20,048 nt of DNA from Fragilaria crotonensis. Its lineage: Eukaryota > Bacillariophyta > Fragilariophyceae > Fragilariales > Fragilariaceae. Position 1 is the stretch's first letter, and each line of letters opens with the position of its first letter. The translations under genes and the position numbers were made by a program. The notes beneath the pieces are model-generated. The model saw only the letters and a list, made by a program, of their open reading frames with translations. It did not search any database and was not told where the DNA came from. The stretch is taken from positions 1 to 20,048 of the forward strand of contig JAKSYS010000834.1 in the NCBI GenBank assembly GCA_022925895.1. The letters are read 5' to 3'. Shown one piece after another: positions 4,935 to 20,048 of the stretch.

Positions 4935-5354
4935 TTGGCATCCGGTTGATCGTATCGCCCGTACGAGACCACTACAGTACTACAAATAGAACAGCGTACA
5001 GCAGTAGGAGTACTAACTACTGTACTAACTACTGTACTGACTTGTACTGACTACTGACTTCTCGAAGTACTAAACAACACTGGTACTTGTACTGGTATAA
5101 GTGTAAAGGAGAGGGAGTTTGGAGTTTGGAGCGCGCATGTCATTTCTTAACGGAGAGTGCCTACATATGTACACACTGCCTACTGCCTACACATCGTGTG
5201 CTGCTGGAAGGTCCGGCAATACGGGCGAATTCCTGAATAAAGGAAGTATGCGCGCCCGCCGGGAGGGAGGGAAACAAGTTCCGATCGATGTCTGGCTGGC
5301 GCAAAATTGGATGTGCCGGCGTGGTGGTGACACGGCTGACGTCTGTAAGAAAAT

Positions 5355-5667
5355 TTGCTTACAGCGAAAAAAAAATTGCTTACGGAATGAAATTGCTTAC
5401 GGAATTTGCTTACCATAAGCAAATCTATTGTAAGCAGAAATTTGCTTACAAAATTTGCTTACTGGGAGATTAAATTTGCTTACGGGGACTGTCTTTTCTA
5501 CGTAAAAACATACCAATTTTCAAACACCTAAATAAAATTTACTTACAGCAAAGAAGAATTTGCTTACGAAAATCAAATTTGCTTACAGAAAAAATTTGCT
5601 TACAAAATTTGCTTACCGGCATAATTTGCTTACTGATTTTGCTTACTGTCATGAAAAATTTGCTTAC
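5355..5667. repeat. Dense array of the octamer TTGCTTAC
   Basis: Fourteen exact copies of TTGCTTAC start at 5355, 5376, 5393, 5406, 5442, 5455, 5476, 5560, 5579, 5596, 5609, 5626, 5639 and 5660. One variant (TTACTTAC) is at 5539, and two inverted one-mismatch copies are at 5415 and 5430. Most exact copies are preceded by AAT or AAAT. Eleven of the fourteen intervals (counting the variant) are 13, 17 or 21 bp. The array lies in the divergent intergenic region 275-590 bp upstream of the AP-3 sigma ATG. Spacers are far too short for CRISPR. It could be a clustered protein-binding array or a decayed minisatellite. Confidence 0.8.
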
Positions 5668-5847
5668 GATGCAGCAACCTTGCCGGCTCGGATGGATCAT
5701 TACGATTGCTAAAATTCTCGCATCATGCAAATCGGAGCAAGGCTGACGCGCAAACTCAACTGCCCCTAACGGTACGGCTGGAACGTGCATGGGCCGGACC
5801 TTCCTGGCAGATGGCTGGACGCAGGAGTTCATGTTGTGCGCGTATTG

Positions 5848-6537: not shown

Positions 6538-7570
6538 TTACTTTCTTTGATCTTCTCCAATCAGTCGCAAGATATAGATGAACATGTTGATAATGTCATT
6601 GTACAGTGACATGGCGCCGAATACGTAATCCTTCTCGTTCATTTGGTACTTGCTGTACTTGCCCGCCACAATGAGTTTGGTGTGGTAGGCTAGGTAGAAC
6701 GAGAATAGTACTGCACCGGCGAACGACATCCACGCGTCTCGCATCGGCAAAACCCGGCCGGAATGATCCCGTACTGCTCTAATAGATTGATCAAGATGAA
6801 CATGAGGAATATCATTCCTGCCGATGAAAGGCCTGCACCCCATTGAGAAAGATCATACTTGGGTTCTTGTTCAAAATGGTATACGCCGACACGGTAGTGG
6901 CTGCAACAGCCGTCGCTCCCATGGCCGCGAGCACAGCTGAAAACTGGTAAAAGCTGGAAATGAAACCCACTGCGACCGATTCACCCAGCGTGAAAAGCGC
7001 AAGTAACTGCCATTTCATGGGAGCCTCCCGACAGGCTCGGACAGAACCGCAAACCAAAAACCAGGCGATTGATGATATGCCTAAAGAAAGAAGAGGAACA
7101 AAAGATCCAGCTTGTCTCATCCAAGCACCAACCTGAGGTTCATTCCAAAGAACAGTACTGATAAGGCTGTGACAAGTAATTGACCGGATAATATCGCATA
7201 GACTCGAGCTATAGCATAGAACGGGGGCAAATGAGTCGGATACATTTCATCAACGAGCTCGTATGACAACGCGTCATGGCGGCTTACCAATGAATGTGTT
7301 GCGATCCTCTCTAGTCAAGAAGGCGTTGATCATGTTCTTTGTTTCCTGGTTCTCGTCGTCATCCTTGGTGAGATCCTCTACGATTGGATAAAGCCGTTGG
7401 TGTTGTTGCCGTTGCGACTGGCTTCCAGGTTTGCGAACCCCCATGGGACCAAACAAACGAGGCCCTCCGCCACGTTGACCTAACTGAGGGGATTCGGCAT
7501 GGCACGACTGCAGGGATAGGACCACAGTGAACAACAGCGCTATGCAAGGAATGCGCAGGATGAAATTCAT
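6538..7570 (-). CDS. Lifeguard/TMBIM (Bax-inhibitor-1 superfamily) membrane protein, two exons, three apparent -1 breaks
   Basis: Exon 1 is 7288-7570 and exon 2 is 6538-7208; the 79-bp intron begins GTAAG and ends TATAG. Exon 1 encodes a signal-like leader (IPCIALLFTVVLSLQSCHA) and a polar segment. The junction reads FIA/RVYAILSGQLLVTAL, the conserved start of Lifeguard TM1. Further segments match TM2-TM7, ending with KYQMNEKDYVFGAMSLYNDI and FIYILRLIGE. Exon 2 needs three one-base shifts, at the runs near 7147-7149, 6859-6863 and 6749-6755; all are consistent with a missing base. Corrected length is about 318 residues. The family comprises ER/Golgi/plasma-membrane Ca2+ leak and anti-cell-death proteins. 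The TM6 Asp of the family (F/Y-D-T) reads YHT here. Confidence 0.82.
7209..7287 (-). other. Intron of the Lifeguard gene
   Basis: The donor is ATTG|GTAAGCC and the acceptor is GCTATAG|CTCG. It splits an Ala codon, and its removal restores the conserved FI-x-RVY start of the membrane domain. Confidence 0.8.
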
Positions 7571-10713: not shown

Positions 10714-10884
10714 GATGAGGTTTACGATGCTAAACCCACCTGGCAAACTTTAGAGCATATCTCTTTTGGCCTTCATCCTATCTCTTGATAATCGTATGTA
10801 GCTGGTGTATTGGACACATGGCACAAGCTTTTTGGGTTGGGGGGACATAGGAGGGACACATAGGGACATCGCATCCTACGTCAG

Positions 10885-11129
10885 TTGCAGATAAGACACT
10901 AAGCCAATGCAACAGTAGACGAGTAAGCTACTCCCTTCTATTGCAGTACCCAAGTGTCTATCTAACATCTGTCGTTACGTAAATGACATACTGACGGCCC
11001 TAGAACATTCGACCGCAGCGCGGTCGAGGGCAAACAACTTGTTCCCTGATGGAAATCACTCACTTGTTTTGCAAATGAGCGATTTGAATACATCGGTGAT
11101 GCGATATCTGCCGATGTACTTTTTGCTAA
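10885..11129 (+). repeat. Split direct repeat A1 (5' terminus of the element)
   Basis: These 245 bp match A2 except for one substitution (A at 11004) and a T run of 5 instead of 7. The repeat holds five consecutive inverted repeats able to form stem-loops: nested 10894-10959, 11009-11027, 11027-11047, 11059-11079 and 11089-11118. The left boundary is defined by where similarity to A2 begins. Confidence 0.9.
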
Positions 11130-11221
11130 TTTGATCACGACAATGAAGCGACACTACGCGTGTTGCTTACTATCTCTGATCTGCTTATGTTTGGAGCTCA
11201 AATGAGCCCAACATTTATTTT

Positions 11222-11261
11222 GCAAACCATTGTGTCTATCAAAATCTGACCAATGGCGCGC
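11222..11261 (+). repeat. 40-bp leader repeat, copy 1
   Basis: It matches 11400-11439 at 34 of 40 positions. Both copies contain CCATTG at the left and CAATGGCGCGC at the right, so each can also fold as a hairpin. Confidence 0.65.
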
Positions 11262-11399
11262 TTCAGTTGTAAACAACAGTCGACGACTACTGCGACGCAG
11301 TAATCGTCTGACTAATGATGCTTCGTTATCTTTCGATACGGCATTATAACAAAGTTATACCTGCATGGTACCCTTTAATCAGGGTCCAGCAGTCTTTCA

Positions 11400-11439
11400 G
11401 CAAACCATTGCGCTTATCAATATCTAGCCAATGGCGCGC
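11400..11439 (+). repeat. 40-bp leader repeat, copy 2
   Basis: This is the second copy, 178 bp after the first. The flanking CCATTG...CAATGG inverted repeat is conserved while the central part differs. Confidence 0.65.
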
Positions 11440-12421
11440 ACACGATCGGTCGATAACCCTGCCGAGCGGCAACTTATCTGACACCTAATGCTCGAAATTT
11501 ACACATCCTAGCCTTTTGGTATCACTTTTACACCTACGGATGAACATGCTCTGCCATTCGATCCAATATTACTTTACACCAACTACAGCTACCGATCAAT
11601 GGCGAAAAACAACTCAAGGAAAAATACAATTTTTTTAAAAACAGACGGACATGACTGCACACAAAGTAATCAGCGTTCGTAGCGAACTATTCCATGTTAC
11701 AACGCGTTGCTCGTAACGATGAGATCCAATTTTCAACAATTACGATCATAAACAAACCATAGCAATCCGTATCCATCATCTCAATCGCAATTGAAAGCAC
11801 CCACACGAACCAAATCGTTATCTCATGATGAAAACCCAAAAAGCCTAATACATCCCAATCAGTTCTAAGACGAATTTCATTCAAGCCCAGCCCAATGTCT
11901 CACACACGCAACTGGGCTATGACTCTATGATAGTAGAAATGACCAAAATTACTACTGGGGCCGGCATAACTGTAAGGTCAATAAATGTCCGAATTCTGGT
12001 CCGGGACTTTTTGTCCTCACATCCCGACTAGTAAAATCTTCGTTCACACTTTTATTCGAGATCAAACATAAATACAGCTATGATTTCTCACGTCCCAATG
12101 AGCCCATTCCCACTTTACCTCCCCTATCTATCCCTACACTAGCATCTGGATATGCAAACCAGACCCACTTACCAAGATCACATTCACCTATGTAAACCAA
12201 CATTATTATAGCGAAGTTTTAAGACAGATGACGCAATTAATTTCATTCCCCTTCGCAATATAAACCATTATTTAGCAAAGTGTTACTCAACCCGTCCTTC
12301 CAATAAATGCAGTATTTATCTGCACGTAACGTAAAGGTCAACGTTTCCATTTATACTCATCGCGATTTACCAAATAAGCTCACAATCCGTCGAATTTCTC
12401 GATAAGCCTTCACAACACAAG

Positions 12422-14921
12422 ATGAACTTTGCAACCGCAGCCCGAGACCTCTCGTTCCGCGAACGCGCACTCAACGTCGCAACTGCCGCTAAGCTCTCTA
12501 GCTTCGCAGACGCATACGACCCCAACCCCGACCATGTCGAGAAAGTCAACGCAACATTTGCCAAGACTTGCTCACCACTCACCAGATTCGCCACATTGTG
12601 TGACATTAGCGTGGTCAAGCTCGCATTCGTCATGCCGAGCTTCAAAATGCAAGTCATGACGTGCCCATTTCCAGCCCAAGGCAGGAACAACGAAGAAGTC
12701 TTTGCCGGAAGCCTCGGTGACTCTTTAGAAGTCTTCTGCCCTGTCACCATCAGGATGAAGGATGTGAGAGGCGACCTCCTCAGCATCTGCGAAACCCGTG
12801 CCGAAGCAAACGTTCTCAAGCTCCCAACTTCAGACACCAACCCCCTCGAAGAGGATGCTCCACCAAATGAAGATGAATTTGTTGAAATTGAAGTTGCTGG
12901 GCCAGACCGTATTGGCATCGACCTCAACGTCGCAACTAAAGAACCATGTTTTGTTGCAATTCCAAAGGTGATCCCCGTCACTGGAGGAGTAAAGGATTAT
13001 TCTGAGTTCAAGGAGTCGGTCGTCACCGAATCGGATATCCCATCAGCCACACCAGGAAGTATGACCGCAGTCTGGTACGAGGCCATGCGATATGGCATCC
13101 GCAAGCTCGACAACTTATCATTGCAAGCAAAGGACGTCCTCTTCCGGTATGAAAACCTCGAAAAAGCCGAATTCACAACGGCCAATCGCGCCCTTGTATC
13201 CCGATTTACTACCATCGTGACATACCTTACGCCTGAGGACGCTTTATACCACGAGGTTATCAAACGAGTCCTCGAAGAGAAAGAAAAGGCATTGTTGACT
13301 TATGGAACAAAAATATTGAGGCGGCACCTCCAGAGCAAGCACTCGCAATTGCGGGAGAAACAGGTGCCGCAATCGGTACGACAGCATTGATCCCATCCCA
13401 TCCGGACTCTGGTATAACCGCGTTGCTTGACGGGTTGGCAAAAGCCATTTCAGACTCGTCTTCCAAGACGCTTACAGGAACCGAAAGGGATAAAGTTTCT
13501 GAAGCAGAAGATTCAAAACGCTTCTACAGTATTCTCTTTGGCGCTGTTCACTATACGATTGAGGAGGACGGTACCCACACTCCTATGTTTGTCCAAGCAA
13601 CTATTCATCCTCTGTTCGCACCCGTTCTCACGGCGAACAAAATTCTAAAGCAACAAAAGCTATGCAGGAAGCAGTTGAGTCAATGGCGGCTGAACTTAGC
13701 CTTCAGGACAACTGCTTTGCATCGTCAAGCAACCTTGTCCCAAGAATGTTTGACCAACCTCTCACTGCAGCTATCCGCATGGGCCAATGGGAGTCCCAAC
13801 ACACGGTACTGAACCCAGAAGGCGTCAAAACCAACTTCGGATTGCACCATCTAGCGCCACCCCGAACTAACAGTGCGACATACATTACACGCCAGCAAGG
13901 CGAGCTTCAACTAACTCAACAAGAGCAAGTCGAAGAAGACCAGAGTCGGTATAACGCAAAAACAACCGATCTCTACCATTTTGGGTACATGGGAACACTC
14001 TCAGAGATCCATGAGATGGTTGGAAATTTTTTGGTTGATGTGCGTCATCATCGAATTCAATGCTGAGCGACCGCCACTTATCTGGGCAGAAATCGCAAAA
14101 TTCATGAAGATTCTGCGAACCAACGATGGTCGCAGATTCGCAGCTCGCCATCGTAACATCAAGGAGGTTATGTTTAACGTCAGCCAAGAAATCCAGTCAA
14201 CAATAATCGGTTTCGTATCAGAAGCAAGGAAAACCAACTATAAAGCAGCCCTCAAAGCAGGTAACGAGATCTCCCCGTCTATATTTGACATTGCACAACA
14301 ACAAGCAGCCGAATTACGCAGCCGCTTTACCCTCGCAGTGCTGTCTGCAAATGCTGGCACTTACAGAGATACATCGGTTATTTTCAAACTCTTCCAACCC
14401 GAGCATACAAAGGAGGAATTGAACAGAAAGAAGAGAGACGCAGCACACGACTCGAATGGCAATCTTTCATCCCGAAACCGGCCCTTTGTATCCAGTGGGA
14501 ATCGCCAAACCGGTTCCCGAACCAAGTGGCTCATACAGTCACTCCAAATGGCAGCCCAACGTCAGCGGGTCCAAACTCCAACAGTGTACCCCCGGGAAAG
14601 ACAGTATTTGTCCACGCAAACCCTGCTCCGCAAAAGCTGCCTCACCCAGGTGCAATCTTCCCTCACCCGACCAGAGATAACAAATTTACTATCCTATGTT
14701 GCCGGAGCGCATACGAGGGACGAACATGCACTATACCAACATGTGCATTTTATCACTTCCCGAAACAATTGAACCAAGTCCCTCGCGACTTGAAAATCAA
14801 ATTGAACGAATGGGTAACCAACCATGAATCGGTCACATGGCACACAGACGCTGTCAACTGGGCGAACCCACCAGGTAACGTTACGCAAACGCGATCGAGT
14901 ACCGCAGCGTCGAACCACTAA
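12422..14921 (+). CDS. Gag-like protein of the retrotransposon with CCCH-type zinc motif (frame-broken)
   Basis: Coding potential starts at ATG 12422 and runs through several frames to TAA 14919-14921. The first 290 residues have no recognised domain. Breaks occur near 13284-13287 (AAAA, base apparently missing), 13647-13649 (AAA, base apparently missing) and 14027-14032 (six T, base apparently extra), and at unresolved points between 14450 and 14560. The C-terminal part is proline-rich (about 14530-14660). A motif with Cys codons at 14700, 14727 and 14742 and His at 14754 follows, giving C-X8-C-X4-C-X3-H. Position before the RT region, size and a C-terminal zinc motif support a nucleocapsid-like role. 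Homology to characterised Gag proteins is not demonstrated. It could be intact in the source if the breaks are sequencing errors. Confidence 0.65.
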
Positions 14922-14978
14922 TAATCTAACCTATTTCGTCTATCCTTACTAATATTAGTCCCAGCGTTCTACCCAAAT

Positions 14979-17643
14979 TTGCATCTTCAAATTCCCAAGA
15001 AAGCATTTCATTATTCACTGCCATCGATTAGTGTTGAACCAACACCTGCGATATCAATTCCCCAGCAGAGACGACACCAAGCAATATCAGATACTGGCCT
15101 AAAACAATCAACTGAAAGCCAGGGGAATGGTGCGACCACTCAAGCAAACACGATGCCAGGAGTCGCTAGTGCCACCAAAAGAACCACCAGTGATACCGTT
15201 GTGAGTACCGCAATCGACGAAACAGTACCGTCTACGTCGGCATACTTAAGCCAAATGATAAACGCATCCGCGACCCAAGACCTTGCTAACCGGCACCAGG
15301 ATTCGAACATATTCGAACGAGACCATTGGAAAACTGGGAAACTTACGTCAAAACGATTGGACAAGTTCGCCCAAATCGTTCTCCTTCAATGTCCAAATAC
15401 AATTGGCGCAGCCCTTTGGTAAGGATTCGTCAACCCAATTCTTTTGCTCTCAAAAATGTTTTCGCCATGTTTTGTTACCTGTCTTAAAAGCGGTTTTTGT
15501 CCTGTCGCGCAACGAAAACCTTGAAAAGCATCGCGACGTGCTCGCCAACTCCAAATGTTGAGGAAGCAATACGCTACTGTCGACTTTACACCATTGCAAG
15601 GTTTCCAGTCCGACTGGGAAGCAACAACAACAATTCGAAACGATTGGAAAATAATGACCTCCGCCTGCCTTCTCCATTTTAATGGCGACGTCGCCACAAT
15701 GGTGCGATGGATTGGAGGCCCACACGTCAACGCCCACCTGGACGTACCGTCAATCCTGGCCAAACTCAAACTTATTGTGGACGCTGATATACATGCAGAC
15801 ATCAGCCGTATTCTCTTGATAGGAGCCCCAGCAGAATGTAAAGCATCTGCAACTGAAGAGAATTTCCAAGCCTTCTTGAAATATGGTAACCACGAATCGG
15901 TTACCAGTAACCAAGATGTGCACGCTTCAACGATTGTGAAGCAAAGCAAACGAGGATTGACCCTCATCATGGACCCAAAATTGATCCATTTTACGCTGAA
16001 CGCTCATCTATCTCCCCAAGGCTTGGTCGATGTTCTCCACGCACGCAGGAAACCTCGACCATTGTCAGATAGCAGTTTCCGACCGTGGCCAGGAGCAATG
16101 GCCATCAATGATTGGACCAACAAAAAGAACGAACCAACCCTCCATTTTGCAAGTTCATTCATGAACTTCTGTAAATGGCATTGGAACCTCGCCATCTCCT
16201 ATCCCCACCACGATAGACACACTGGCGACGACGATGTGCAATGTGCATTCCCCCCGCCTGAAATACAACCCACAATTGGTGGCCATGCATAGTTCAATAT
16301 CAAACAATACCCTCAGCATGAACACAGGCTTAACGTTTGGAGATAACACAAGCCCGTCGAATTGGGAACCAGTTGCACGAGCTCGCCAGCAGTTGGCACA
16401 ACACTACTGGAAGAACCAACCAGCAATGGCAATGGAAAAAGCACAGCCATTCCTTCCCCCATTCAAATTCGCTCCGCCGGCAACCAAAACCGAGCGAGAT
16501 GCATTTGCAGTCGCCATCCGCGATTCATTGAACACTGGGGTGTTCGACGCAGACGGGCGTCGCCGACCACCAACGTATGACCACCATGTTGACGACAACA
16601 TGTATGGTGACATAACAGAGTTGATGCCACTGGCGGCCGCCGCAAGCGTCATCGCTCTCTATGAGATCCTGGGATATCCTGATGGGAGAATCCCAGATCC
16701 CATTTCTTGGGAAAAATTCGAGTCCGTCCACGGCCACATCCGACGAGTGATAGGATGGGACTTCAACACCCGAAACCTGACGTTCGCTCTCCCAGATGAC
16801 AAACGTCAAGCACTGTTATCAACACTCAAGGCATGGCGCACGAAAACATCGTGTACCCTCTTAGAAGCCGCAGAACTACACGGCACCCTGGCAGATATTT
16901 CCCGAGCAAACCGAAAAGGACGAGCCATGTTTTTCGGATTCCAAAACGCATTACGTCGCACCATCCAGCAACGTTACCACCAAGTCAATGGGTATTATTC
17001 GCGGCACAATAAACGAGAATATATGACAACTCAGTTGCCCAAGCATCTGCACCATCGCTTGGATTCGCTGATAGCGCGCGAAATGGCGGCCCTTATATGG
17101 AAAACAAAAAAACCACCATCAAACTGACGGAAGCCGTCGCGTTTGAAATTCGCAACATTGAATCGCTGCTGGCCAACAAAGATAGGCCATGGTCGATTAG
17201 TATTGGACACGTCATCCCGCGCGACGCCCAATTTACCAGTCTTGGCGATGCGTGTGGAATTGGGGGAGGAGCGTTCTGCCACGAACTCCCAATATTGGTT
17301 TGATGTTGTGTGGTCCGATCACACCCGCCAACAATTCAACATTGGGAAAATACACATCAACATCTTGGAATTTGTTGTCGTGTTGCTGCAACTAGCGGCA
17401 GCTATTACTCGGGACGAGCAAGCATTCCAGGTCAACGGTCGCAGCATCCTACCGCTTCACAAACTTCTCATCCGATCCGACAACTCACCATCATGTAACT
17501 GGGCGCATAAAGTGTCAGCTAAATCAGAGAGAGGGCAGTTATTTGTCAGCATATACGCTGACCTCATCGAGCGTACCGAACTTACAGTTGACTGTACCCA
17601 TGTGGCGGGATCCGATAACGATCTCGCCGACTTTTTATCTCGA
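14979..17643 (+). CDS. Reverse transcriptase - RNase H polyprotein of the retrotransposon (frame-broken)
   Basis: The N-terminal part (14979-15550) is low-complexity and its start is uncertain. The RT core is clear from 15555. Motif A has the Asp triplet at 16227-16235 followed by V-Q-C-A-F. Motif B reads FGDNTSPSNWE at 16336-16368. Motif C reads HHVDDNMY at 16582-16605, with the two catalytic Asp codons at 16591 and 16594. Thumb/connection sequence follows (LPDDKRQALLSTLKAW, ELHGTLADISRANRKG). RNase H runs from about 17128, with SDNSPSCNW and the C-terminal HVAGSDNDLADFLSR at 17599-17643. Frame breaks lie at six C (16250-16255), seven A (17106-17112) and CCC (17288-17290). It copies element RNA to DNA and removes the RNA strand. 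No integrase or protease domain is seen. Confidence 0.8.
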
Positions 17644-17678
17644 CCACCTTTCCCAGATAACCCCACTCACAGGATTCG

Positions 17679-18910
17679 TTGCCAACAGATATTTCAAAAG
17701 GAGCCGAGGTTGCGGTCTTACAGCTTTTCCGCCCCAGTCCAGAACTCTTATCATGCCTGGTGTCCAGGCTGTCCACCGTACATTGGCAAGCAAGCCCGCC
17801 TCTACCAAAGTCGCTCGGACAATTCGAAACCGTCGACTCCACTACTTCATATTCTGTTTCGATATGAAGCTCGATGACGACTGGCTCCTCGAAAACCAGT
17901 CGCAAGAACGAGCCAATTTCAATTGGCAATGTACGCAACGCATTTGGCAACAGGATCGTCTCTCCACTGTCGAGCAATCAAGGCCAGCACGATTGCGAGT
18001 TACTTATGACATCGCAACTTTTCTGGGGCGTTTCCGCCCGATTGACCCGCGTTTTATTTCCGCAGCCGACGCAGCGCTCGCGCCAGTGATCGCCAAGGTA
18101 ATTGCCGAACAACGACGATGGGAAATGGTCCCAAATCGACGCGAACCATTTACAGTCGAAATGCATCTCGCCATCGCTAACTTTCCAAGTTCCCAAAAGG
18201 ATGATTGTTGTCTGACTGCCGCAATGGCAAACTGGACGTTATGCAATCTGTATGCAGGATGTCGCGGTATCAGTGGGCACAAACCCAACTTATCCACCGA
18301 CCCCTCAACACGTTCCACAAAAATCGATTCAAAATGCATATGCATTTACTTTGAACGATGTCTTGTGCTTCACCATAACTTCCTCTCCTTTAACCTTCGC
18401 GCAAGCTCTCGCAACCCCGTCGCGAGTCGAAAAATCAAGCTGCGATTCGAAGAACAAAAAATGGTGAGAATGGAGAGTGGAAATTGTTCACGCGCAACAA
18501 CAGCAACACGAACCTATGTTTCGTATCGAATTTTACAAATTCTTGCACGCCACAAGCGACTTGCAAATTCCTCCCCCACTCAGCCTCTGAGCGTGTACCG
18601 AGGTAATGATGGAGTCGCATACAATATCACAACTGTCGACATTGATGCAACTCTCCGCGCCGCCGCCGCTAAAGTATACCAACTTGACCCTACTGCGCAT
18701 CGCGCAACCCTTCAATTGTGGTCTTCCCATTCGTTGCGCGTCGGCGCGTGTACCCTATTATATTCAAAAGGGTTTAGTGAGATGGAGATCAAGTATCTGT
18801 TGCGATGGAAAAGTAACGCTTTTATGACTTACCTGCGCAATTTGGCCGTCACCTCCCGCCGACAAAACGACGCGGTGAACGACACCAGCGAAATACCTAA
18901 TTTTGTGTAA
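17679..18910 (+). CDS. Tyrosine recombinase of the retrotransposon (frame-broken)
   Basis: The N-terminal part overlaps frame changes at about 17680-17880. The core runs from RLRVTYDIATFLGRF to the stop at 18908-18910. Catalytic signatures of the tyrosine recombinase family are visible: the first Arg at 18263 in YAGCRGIS, HSLR at 18728-18739, Trp at 18806 in the His/Trp position (LLRWKS), and the nucleophilic Tyr at 18830 in FMTYLRN. Between 18270 and 18540 the best-looking sequence switches frames (for example NGEWKLFTRN), so at least two indels lie there. The enzyme integrates circular element DNA by strand exchange through a 3'-phosphotyrosyl link. This is the element's integrase equivalent and separates it from gypsy and copia elements. 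Confidence 0.85.
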
Positions 18911-19453
18911 TGCGATTTACCCTTTCGAACAGCGTTCGCATGTGTATGAGCATTCCCGAGCACGCAGAGCCACATCGGTGCCCACACCATGTGTTGTAAT
19001 TAGCCCGAGCACATCCCTCTCGCCTGAAGCCTCGAGGTCCAGCGTTAGTATACGCTAAATTATCGAATTGCGCTGCGAACATAACGCATATGAAAACGTA
19101 TGCCAATAAGATATAACGCATGCCCGGTACGCACCAAGCAACGCAGACGAGCAGGCAAACGTCCTGCTCGAGTATGCCAGTACCATCGCACGCGATCGTT
19201 TTACATGTATGTCTTGTTGTCCTACTCAACCGAGTTTTAGCAACCCAACTGTTTCTAGTACCATTCCAGCTGCTTGTTACGTTGTCATGCTAAACGCAAT
19301 TATAACAACCCGACTGAAACACAGAATAATTTCCTTTTTCTTTTTTTTCCGGCTGTCTGCCGCCGCACGATATGGCCCCCAACCCTGCTACACTGCGTAT
19401 AACAGCGTCAGCAGACGACACGGGCAGGCCAGTGCTTTAGTGAACCATCCGGG
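18911..19453. other. Non-coding 3' part of the retrotransposon
   Basis: This stretch lies between the recombinase stop and repeat B1. It contains a pyrimidine-rich run near 19330-19350. I see no coding frame with recognisable motifs and no RNA gene. Confidence 0.4.
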
Positions 19454-19636
19454 AATCCGTTGGACTCCTCGGATACTCTAAAATCGTCATTGTCACTACG
19501 TCATACTCGTAGAAGTACACATACGACAGTAACATGAATGCTCCATACGTAGTTGCTATGTGGTTACACTATTGCACAGCCATACCGTTCGACAGTGCAG
19601 TACAGCTGAGGCGACTTCTGGGAATCCATAGGATTC
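19454..19636 (+). repeat. Split direct repeat B1
   Basis: From 19454 it matches B2 until the window edge (to 19563 in B1) with one substitution and a 30-bp gap. The remaining 73 bp up to A2 are assigned to B1 by the logic of split direct repeats, where the B1-A2 junction equals the joined B2-A1 ends of the circular form. Confidence 0.75.
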
Positions 19637-19883
19637 TTGCAGATAAGACACTAAGCCAATGCAACAGTAGACGAGTAAGCTACTCCCTTCTATTGCAGTA
19701 CCCAAGTGTCTATCTAACATCTGTCGTTACGTAAATGACATACTGACGGCCCTAGGACATTCGACCGCAGCGCGGTCGAGGGCAAACAACTTGTTCCCTG
19801 ATGGAAATCACTCACTTGTTTTGCAAATGAGCGATTTGAATACATCGGTGATGCGATATCTGCCGATGTACTTTTTTTGCTAA
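19637..19883 (+). repeat. Split direct repeat A2 (internal copy)
   Basis: These 247 bp are nearly identical to A1 at 10885-11129, at an offset of 8752. They lie between B1 and B2. A 25-bp unique spacer (19884-19908) separates A2 from B2. Confidence 0.9.
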
Positions 19884-19908
19884 CCCACCCGCCGTCCCCA
19901 ACAGCCTC

Positions 19909-20048
19909 AATCCGTTGGACTCCTCGGATACTCTAAAATCGTCATAGTCACTACGTTTTTTGCCCACTATGCTACTGTCACTACGTCATACTCGTAGAAA
20001 TACACATACGACAGTAACATGAATGCTCCATACGTAGTTGCTATGTGG
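19909..20048 (+). repeat. Split direct repeat B2 (3' terminus, truncated by the window)
   Basis: It starts with AATCCGTTGGACTCC as B1 does and continues to the last base. It has 30 bp more than B1 (19946-19975), bounded by direct copies of GTCACTACG at 19947 and 19977. Confidence 0.85.

Follow-up and report, generated by a model that had tools for sequence, protein, structure and literature searches.

What kind of mobile element occupies the right half of the 20,048-nt contig C817 of Fragilaria crotonensis, and how does it come to carry an internal copy of its own left end? The window considered here is this whole contig, one of 881 in an assembly of 62.1 Mb, and the element starts at position 10,885. 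We conclude with high confidence that it belongs to a young, multicopy family of tyrosine recombinase (YR) retrotransposons of the Ngaro structural type. The assignment is drawn from repeat anatomy and domain content, and it fits the definitions given in PMC4157794. The features of the element, from left to right, are as follows.

10825–10884, no strand: left flank; the homologous contig C118 (locus L062) continues without the element (alignment)
10885–11129, plus strand: A1, left terminal split direct repeat, starting TTGCAGATAAGAC and ending GCTAA (repeat comparison)
11130–12421, plus strand: untranslated leader (copy comparison)
12422–14921, plus strand: gag-like region, assigned by position, with open frames 12335–13390, 13237–13812, 13563–14066, 13915–14772 and 14289–14921
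14685–14759, plus strand: CCCH-type motif (C-x8-C-x4-C-x3-H) upstream of pol (motif reading)
15384–17240, plus strand: reverse transcriptase (RT) region, limits approximate, broken between frames (motifs; left limit from pol DNA homology)
16224–16250, 16330–16365 and 16576–16605, plus strand: RT motifs A, B and C (motif reading)
17241–17643, plus strand: RNase H, with D / E / D / ADF-SR motifs in two frames (motif reading alone)
17714–18910, plus strand: YR, in the open frame 17396–18910 (motifs and a weak PF00589 match)
18248–18268, 18716–18739 and 18803–18838, plus strand: YR boxes R, HxxR and W/Y (motif reading)
18911–19424, plus strand: 3' untranslated region (UTR) (copy comparison)
19425–19636, plus strand: B1, internal repeat adjoining A2 (repeat comparison)
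19637–19883, plus strand: A2, internal copy of A1 (repeat comparison)
19884–19908, plus strand: A2–B2 linker, belonging to neither A nor B (copy comparison)
19909–20048, plus strand: B2, right terminal repeat, incomplete at the contig end (repeat comparison)

In the alignment of A1 with A2, 244 positions match, one differs and a single gap reflects a T-run that is 2 nt longer in A2. A repeat search of the window recovered the core of this pair as 240 nt, 100% identical and 8,752 nt apart, and 240 identical bases do not arise by chance. B1 and B2 of the window were found as repeat families D4 (73 nt, 99%) and D7 (48 nt, 98%). The original prediction had described a nearly full-length element with A1 ... 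B1–A2–B2 termini and one substitution in about 245 bp between A1 and A2, and our comparisons bear out each of these points: the pairs are real repeats, and B2 is incomplete because the contig itself stops at 20,048 nt, with the remaining ~75 nt lying beyond it as judged by comparison with locus L005. In seven other copies, B1 and B2 measure 240–241 nt and differ by 0–2 mismatches, A1 and A2 also differ by 0–2 mismatches, and the linker spans 20–26 nt; the window B1 and B2 are short by ~30 nt and ~28 nt, respectively, relative to these copies. The start of A1 is abrupt, with unrelated flanks in other copies, and coincides exactly with the end of the C118 homology. The B1/A2 joint (GGATTC/TTGCAG) is identical to that formed by joining the element end to the element start. 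The window holds a single inverted pair of at least 20 nt (21 nt at 81%), one arm of which lies outside the element, and the inverted repeats of DIRS-like elements in the narrow sense are absent. Rfam and tRNA scans of the window returned no matches.

In the window copy, motifs of gag, RT and RNase H are scattered across several frames, so each piece was read on its own, alongside relatives in which the open frames are long. The YR frame is open but contains stretches that fail to align with a relative. The predicted content of a gag-like frame, RT, RNase H and YR is thus present as motifs or as a region, with the gag and pol frames of the window interrupted. The pol proteins of 9/9 relatives share, without variation, the RT motif residues DDDVQCAF, FG..TSPSNW and HVDDN. 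The CCCH motif recurs in loci L048 and L060, and a similar cysteine cluster was seen by eye upstream of the RT of L064/L065. No Pfam family exceeded its cut-off in the gag-like region, and neither the window frames nor the pol relatives gave a Pfam match to RNase H, methyltransferase, protease or DDE integrase. The YR homology begins ~70 nt past the last RNase H motif, leaving little room for a methyltransferase.

The family has the hallmarks of the DIRS order, namely RT and RNase H, a YR instead of a DDE integrase, and no target duplication, where the RT is recognized by its motifs and by a chain of profile matches to the L079 RT, a direct Pfam RT match being absent, and RNase H and the YR boxes are recognized by motif. 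A lack of target-site duplication is typical of this order. The original prediction had left the choice among Ngaro, PAT and TOC open; the split direct repeats, whose internal pair lies downstream of the YR, agree with Ngaro, and we favor it over PAT/TOC because no methyltransferase was found. A Crypton, which has a YR without RT, does not apply to an element in which RT is present.

Copies, insertion sites and remnants

Of 54 candidate matches to the A repeat in the genome, 40 were scored, and A pairs 8,752–8,847 nt apart occur in ten contigs, which also contain RT and YR matches. The search for further copies that had been proposed for this element was therefore productive. We grouped copies as alpha (C817, C437, C241, C191), beta (C368, C234, C244, C120), gamma (C228, C338, C829) and delta (C49, C306, C765, C493). 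Wherever they were compared, the other alpha copies (C437, C241, C191) proved almost identical to the window copy. Over about 3.5 kb, the window copy differs from C437 by 1 substitution and 13 indels and from C241 by 1 substitution and 15 indels; C437 and C241 differ from each other by 0 substitutions and 8 indels. Runs of at least three identical bases hold 8/13, 9/15 and 5/8 of these indels, respectively. With so few substitutions and so many homopolymer indels, the pattern suggests not age but errors of sequencing or assembly, or else indels of very recent origin.

The left flank of the element has one other match in the genome, C118, which matches the 1.9 kb ending at base 10,884 with 97.8% identity and then continues without the element. 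The proposed search for an empty site thus succeeded on the left side: C118 is probably the element-free allele of the window insertion, as judged from that side, the right flank being outside the contig. A recent insertion of the window copy, as originally proposed, is supported because a single mismatch separates A1 from A2, a homologous contig lacks the element and each of two sisters differs by 1 substitution in 3.5 kb.

A target duplication of at least 2 nt is absent in all eight copies with both flanks (C437, C241, C191, C228, C829, C234, C368 and the solo copy on C60); C437 shows a 1-nt match at its insertion flanks. We left an A pair on C482 out of this count because its ends seem to belong to two elements: their A identities to the window differ (99% vs 91%), they lie 9.48 kb apart, and C452 continues the left flank of the pair into other sequence. 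At the C368 site, which lies within another repeat, C340 and ten other contigs run across without the element (40 of 152 candidates scored); C340 was inspected base by base. For the C829 site, C453 matches 29 nt past the joint with one mismatch and then diverges.

Two further observations concern the C368 locus. In the interval C368:22913-32700 (L013, L014, L020), B2 is followed by an additional A–linker–B unit, which looks like a solo A–B unit attached to the element. In a different copy of the repeat that hosts this insertion, C76:112550-116800 (L084), the position of the C368 insertion is occupied by a 3.7-kb stretch with 40-nt inverted ends and a 4-nt TGAG duplication, either by coincidence or because the site is preferred.

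Remnants are also present. C60 has a lone A–linker–B between unrelated flanks, C539 and C99, which share one flank, resemble solo A–linker–B units, and C243 and C62 carry A plus linker with no B end detected by pattern search. Among the solo loci, L021 and L027/L028 possess a B end, and L024 and L025 consist of A plus linker. Recombination between A1 and A2, with deletion of the intervening DNA, would explain these remnants.

Kinship of the reverse transcriptase and recombinase

Profile comparison with hhalign (5 focal and 3 copia sequences, 4 of 9 focal and 1 of 4 copia sequences having been lost in motif trimming) connects the family RT to the loci L064/L065/L081 with a probability of 97% (E 1e-10, 259 columns) and weakly to L079 (23%, E 9e-4). 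The L064-type RT in turn matches that of L079 (98%, E 9e-13), which barely clears the RVT_1 cut-off (30.0 vs 29.6 bits). The same method yielded no match between the family RT and the gypsy and copia (both 0.2%) or long interspersed nuclear element (LINE) RTs of the same genome, nor with a reversed control. Among the 111 RVT_1 rows of the genome, none coincides with the rows of our pol search, the two lists having been compared by eye. In sequence searches of the PDB, neither a single pol protein nor the pol profile retrieved anything useful, and none of the 190 IMG/VR stretches that fit a pattern was confirmed as a relative. Four of the six candidate relatives (L076, L077, L078 and L080) look by eye like LINE-type RTs and were set aside.

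The YR core matches that of the L065 element (E 3e-8 across 39 residues), and both related RT families carry a YR-like frame after RT/RNase H. All 17 of the PDB hits listed for the YR are Cre or Cre-derived proteins, a similarity that is suggestive only because the E-values are 0.078–0.3.

The genome therefore appears to contain two further RT–YR families. One is found at C24:66500-74300 (L065, L082), C409 (L064) and C187 (L081); L064 and L065 likewise lack a Pfam RVT_1 match, and the YR-like frame of L082 matches PF00589 at E 0.0005, under the cut-off. The second is found at C82:89200-95000 (L079, L083), where the YR-like frame of L083 has no Pfam match and is based on motif reading.

Several observations weigh against our classification. 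Pfam RVT_1 matches 0/8 pol proteins at E≤1, and the family YR matches PF00589 at E 0.002–0.01 (0.0096 for the window copy), below the curated cut-off. An AlphaFold model of the RT piece 16249–17112, computed without an alignment, has a predicted local distance difference test (pLDDT) score of 36.7. The gypsy, copia and LINE RTs of the genome miss each other too (0.2–0.9%), so the missing match of the family RT to gypsy and copia is weak evidence of distance. The right flank of the window copy lies beyond the contig, and the lack of target duplication is seen in other copies alone. Finally, an element-free partner was found for 0/3 of the other alpha copies (C437, C241, C191).

These points bear on three other accounts of the locus. 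Were the element of the long terminal repeat (LTR) type, gypsy or copia, with seemingly split LTRs and a recombinase-like frame arising by chance, the presence of both groups in the genome would be in its favor, and, as the profile method fails to link even gypsy with copia, the lack of a match is hardly informative about deep kinship. A match would nevertheless be expected for a close member of either group, and the family RT reaches a probability of 0.2%; at the low sensitivity of hhalign between RT classes, this result counts against close gypsy/copia membership and not against a common root. Moreover, the frames match neither an aspartic protease nor a DDE integrase, a control gypsy frame shows RVT_1 and RVP, target duplications are absent and the repeats follow an A–B–A–B order. 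We consider an LTR origin, which the original prediction had named as its refuter, very improbable. The other refuter it named was that A and B are a satellite, or an unrelated duplication merely surrounding coding DNA. A repeats without a coding region do exist, at the solo loci listed above, but their A–linker–B structure and unrelated flanks are what an A1 × A2 deletion predicts, and in ten contigs the A pairs stand 8,752–8,847 nt apart together with RT and YR matches. This copy structure already refutes the satellite account, to which we give next to no weight. Better placed, yet still unlikely, is the possibility that the broken frames reflect true decay of an old, dead insertion: there are several frame changes in gag, pol and YR, but the single substitution against each of two sisters, next to 13 and 15 indels of which many fall in single-base runs, is a poor fit with age. 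We therefore retain the assignment to a young YR retrotransposon family of the Ngaro type.

Shared ends across pol lineages

Ngaro and PAT models imply that A1 and A2, as well as B1 and B2, are near-identical at insertion (PMC6681497). In the replication scheme that we consider for this family, RNA would be copied into DNA by RT/RNase H, and the internal B1–A2 block would act as the template that rejoins both ends, giving a circle whose B/A joint equals the genomic B1/A2 joint. The YR would then recombine this joint with the target without duplicating it, and A1 would be rebuilt from A2 in each cycle. Rebuilding of A1 is supported because lineages with the 3' end type of another lineage carry the matching A1 and not the adjoining leader.

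The evidence comes from comparing the pol and A identities of the groups (C191 is not included in this comparison). In pol, gamma and delta are 84.6–84.9% identical, gamma and alpha 75.2–76.1%, and beta and alpha 80.7–83.9%. In A, identity is 98.3–99.2% between gamma and alpha, 82.4% between gamma and one delta A, and 97.5–98.8% between beta and alpha. Lineages that are 16–25% apart in pol thus have A repeats that are 97.5–99.6% identical. The A repeats of delta C765 and of C1 are 82–86% identical to the rest and to each other.

The transitions are abrupt. Gamma and alpha are 100% identical in the last 80 nt of A1 and 40–55% identical just after, and reach 95–100% only from about 120–140 nt before B1. 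The leader of the window copy is 100% identical in the alpha copy C191 and about 65–80% identical or unalignable in most other lineages. Beta and alpha are near-identical over the first ~500 nt, ~50% identical near element position 600 and ~70–88% identical in pol. At element position 6,800 (window ~17684), where the pol and YR frames overlap immediately past RNase H, their identity jumps from 63% to 100%, and it stays at 89–100% to the end. Gamma at the same position rises from 63% to 76–100% for ~150 nt and then falls back to 65–90% until the 3' UTR. Because gamma rises there too, this ~150-nt stretch is conserved in itself.

A pol tree of 16 sequences groups gamma with delta (support 100) and rejects an alpha+beta+gamma clade (approximately unbiased (AU) test, p=0.00017). 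With 13 sequences, one of them delta, the short alignment of A does not reject gamma+delta (AU p=0.18), which speaks against an exchange of ends. As the AU tests support the pol grouping only, the case for exchange draws on distances and abrupt steps.

We interpret the shared ends as the likely result of template switching, with A1 rebuilt from A2 in each cycle. The simplest account would be an exchange during reverse transcription or on circles: with A2 as the source of a rebuilt A1, a single exchange close to the 3' end would change both ends and leave a step where A1 stops, as seen in gamma. We accordingly lean, with moderate confidence, towards an exchangeable end cassette, in which one version of the ends (A1, 3' UTR and B1–A2–B2, and in one lineage the YR as well) would have spread over at least three pol lineages. 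Its main rival is strong selection on the ends as YR or priming sites, without exchange. The ends might hold recombinase and promoter sites, the topology test on A is non-significant when taken alone, and the beta step is in part local conservation, its first ~150 nt being better conserved in gamma too. However, the diverged ends of delta C765 and C1 fit poorly with such selection, the identity of gamma collapses from 100% to 40% right after the end of A1, and past the ~150-nt stretch beta stays close to alpha up to the element end, whereas gamma returns to 65–90% until the 3' UTR. Taken together, selection on the ends seems improbable to us as the explanation, and we favor the exchangeable cassette.

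Host genome and place among known elements

Silicon transporters mark diatoms; few other algae and protists have them. The genome has 19 matches to the silicon-transporter family PF03842, 18 of them over the cut-off (best E 4e-193), and one of 14 control genomes gave a match, which was below the cut-off. The diatom host named by the original prediction is thus the most likely one. The left half of the window contains ordinary genes, including those for glutamine synthetase, a clathrin-adaptor small chain and a leucine-rich-repeat protein; 2/7 frames from this half are without match. Short repeats AATTTGCTTAC cluster with irregular spacing between host genes at window positions 5350–5670. Elsewhere in the assembly, C97:29749-33762 includes three silicon-transporter matches within one 1,456-aa open frame, and 14 RVT_1 rows fall on C880, from about 8.9 to 91.4 kb, perhaps belonging to organelle group II introns.

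Ngaro and Viper differ from DIRS mainly by having no methyltransferase; their repeats are split, and the internal pair follows the YR (PMC4157794). The window family resembles Ngaro in its A1–[open frames]–B1A2B2 arrangement, in its internal repeats downstream of the YR, and in combining RT, RNase H and YR with no methyltransferase found. It differs from Ngaro-like elements in an RT that Pfam misses, a CCCH motif upstream of pol and perhaps a 20–26-nt A2–B2 linker, and at about 9.2 kb it is longer than the Cafeteria Ngaro of about 6 kb (PMC8547959). Split direct repeats, YR and RT are shared with PAT and TOC, which belong to the methyltransferase group (PMC4157794); unlike PAT, the window family has no detected methyltransferase and little room for one. 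The VIPER/TATE elements of kinetoplastids, a different host, are similar by description in their YR and in the repeat order of some copies (PMC6681497). Symbiodinium DIRS-like elements share the A–coding–B–A–B order and have divergent RTs that align poorly with Pfam seeds, but some of their copies carry a cytosine methyltransferase, for which we found no counterpart (PMC5890265).

In two diatoms, LTR elements, mostly copia-like, are the most abundant (PMC2806351), and the original prediction regarded an element of this order in a diatom as notable. That view must be tempered, as Phaeodactylum has 14 DIRS copies totaling 18,118 bp in the Phatr3 annotation (PMC5859163). These copies, and the DIRS/Ngaro-like elements that a review of marine stramenopiles mentions (PMC3145265), are of the same order as the window family and come from related hosts. 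In Chaetoceros, a Gypsy/DIRS1 class accounts for 1.11% with no finer split (PMC8613185). Among the titles and abstract openings listed in our search of an open-access library, there was no paper dissecting split-repeat elements in a diatom or the exchange of their ends. The kind of element is a known and ordinary one; the family is in good condition as a whole and probably undescribed, and its shared ends are its more interesting property.

YR retrotransposons seem to be little described in diatoms. This family escapes the standard RT profile, so its copies may be undercounted when algal genomes are annotated. The occurrence of young copies, element-free sites, remnants and mosaics in one genome makes the split-repeat replication model testable. 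If the exchangeable-cassette interpretation is true, the family would record the proposed split-direct-repeat replication scheme in natural recombinants.

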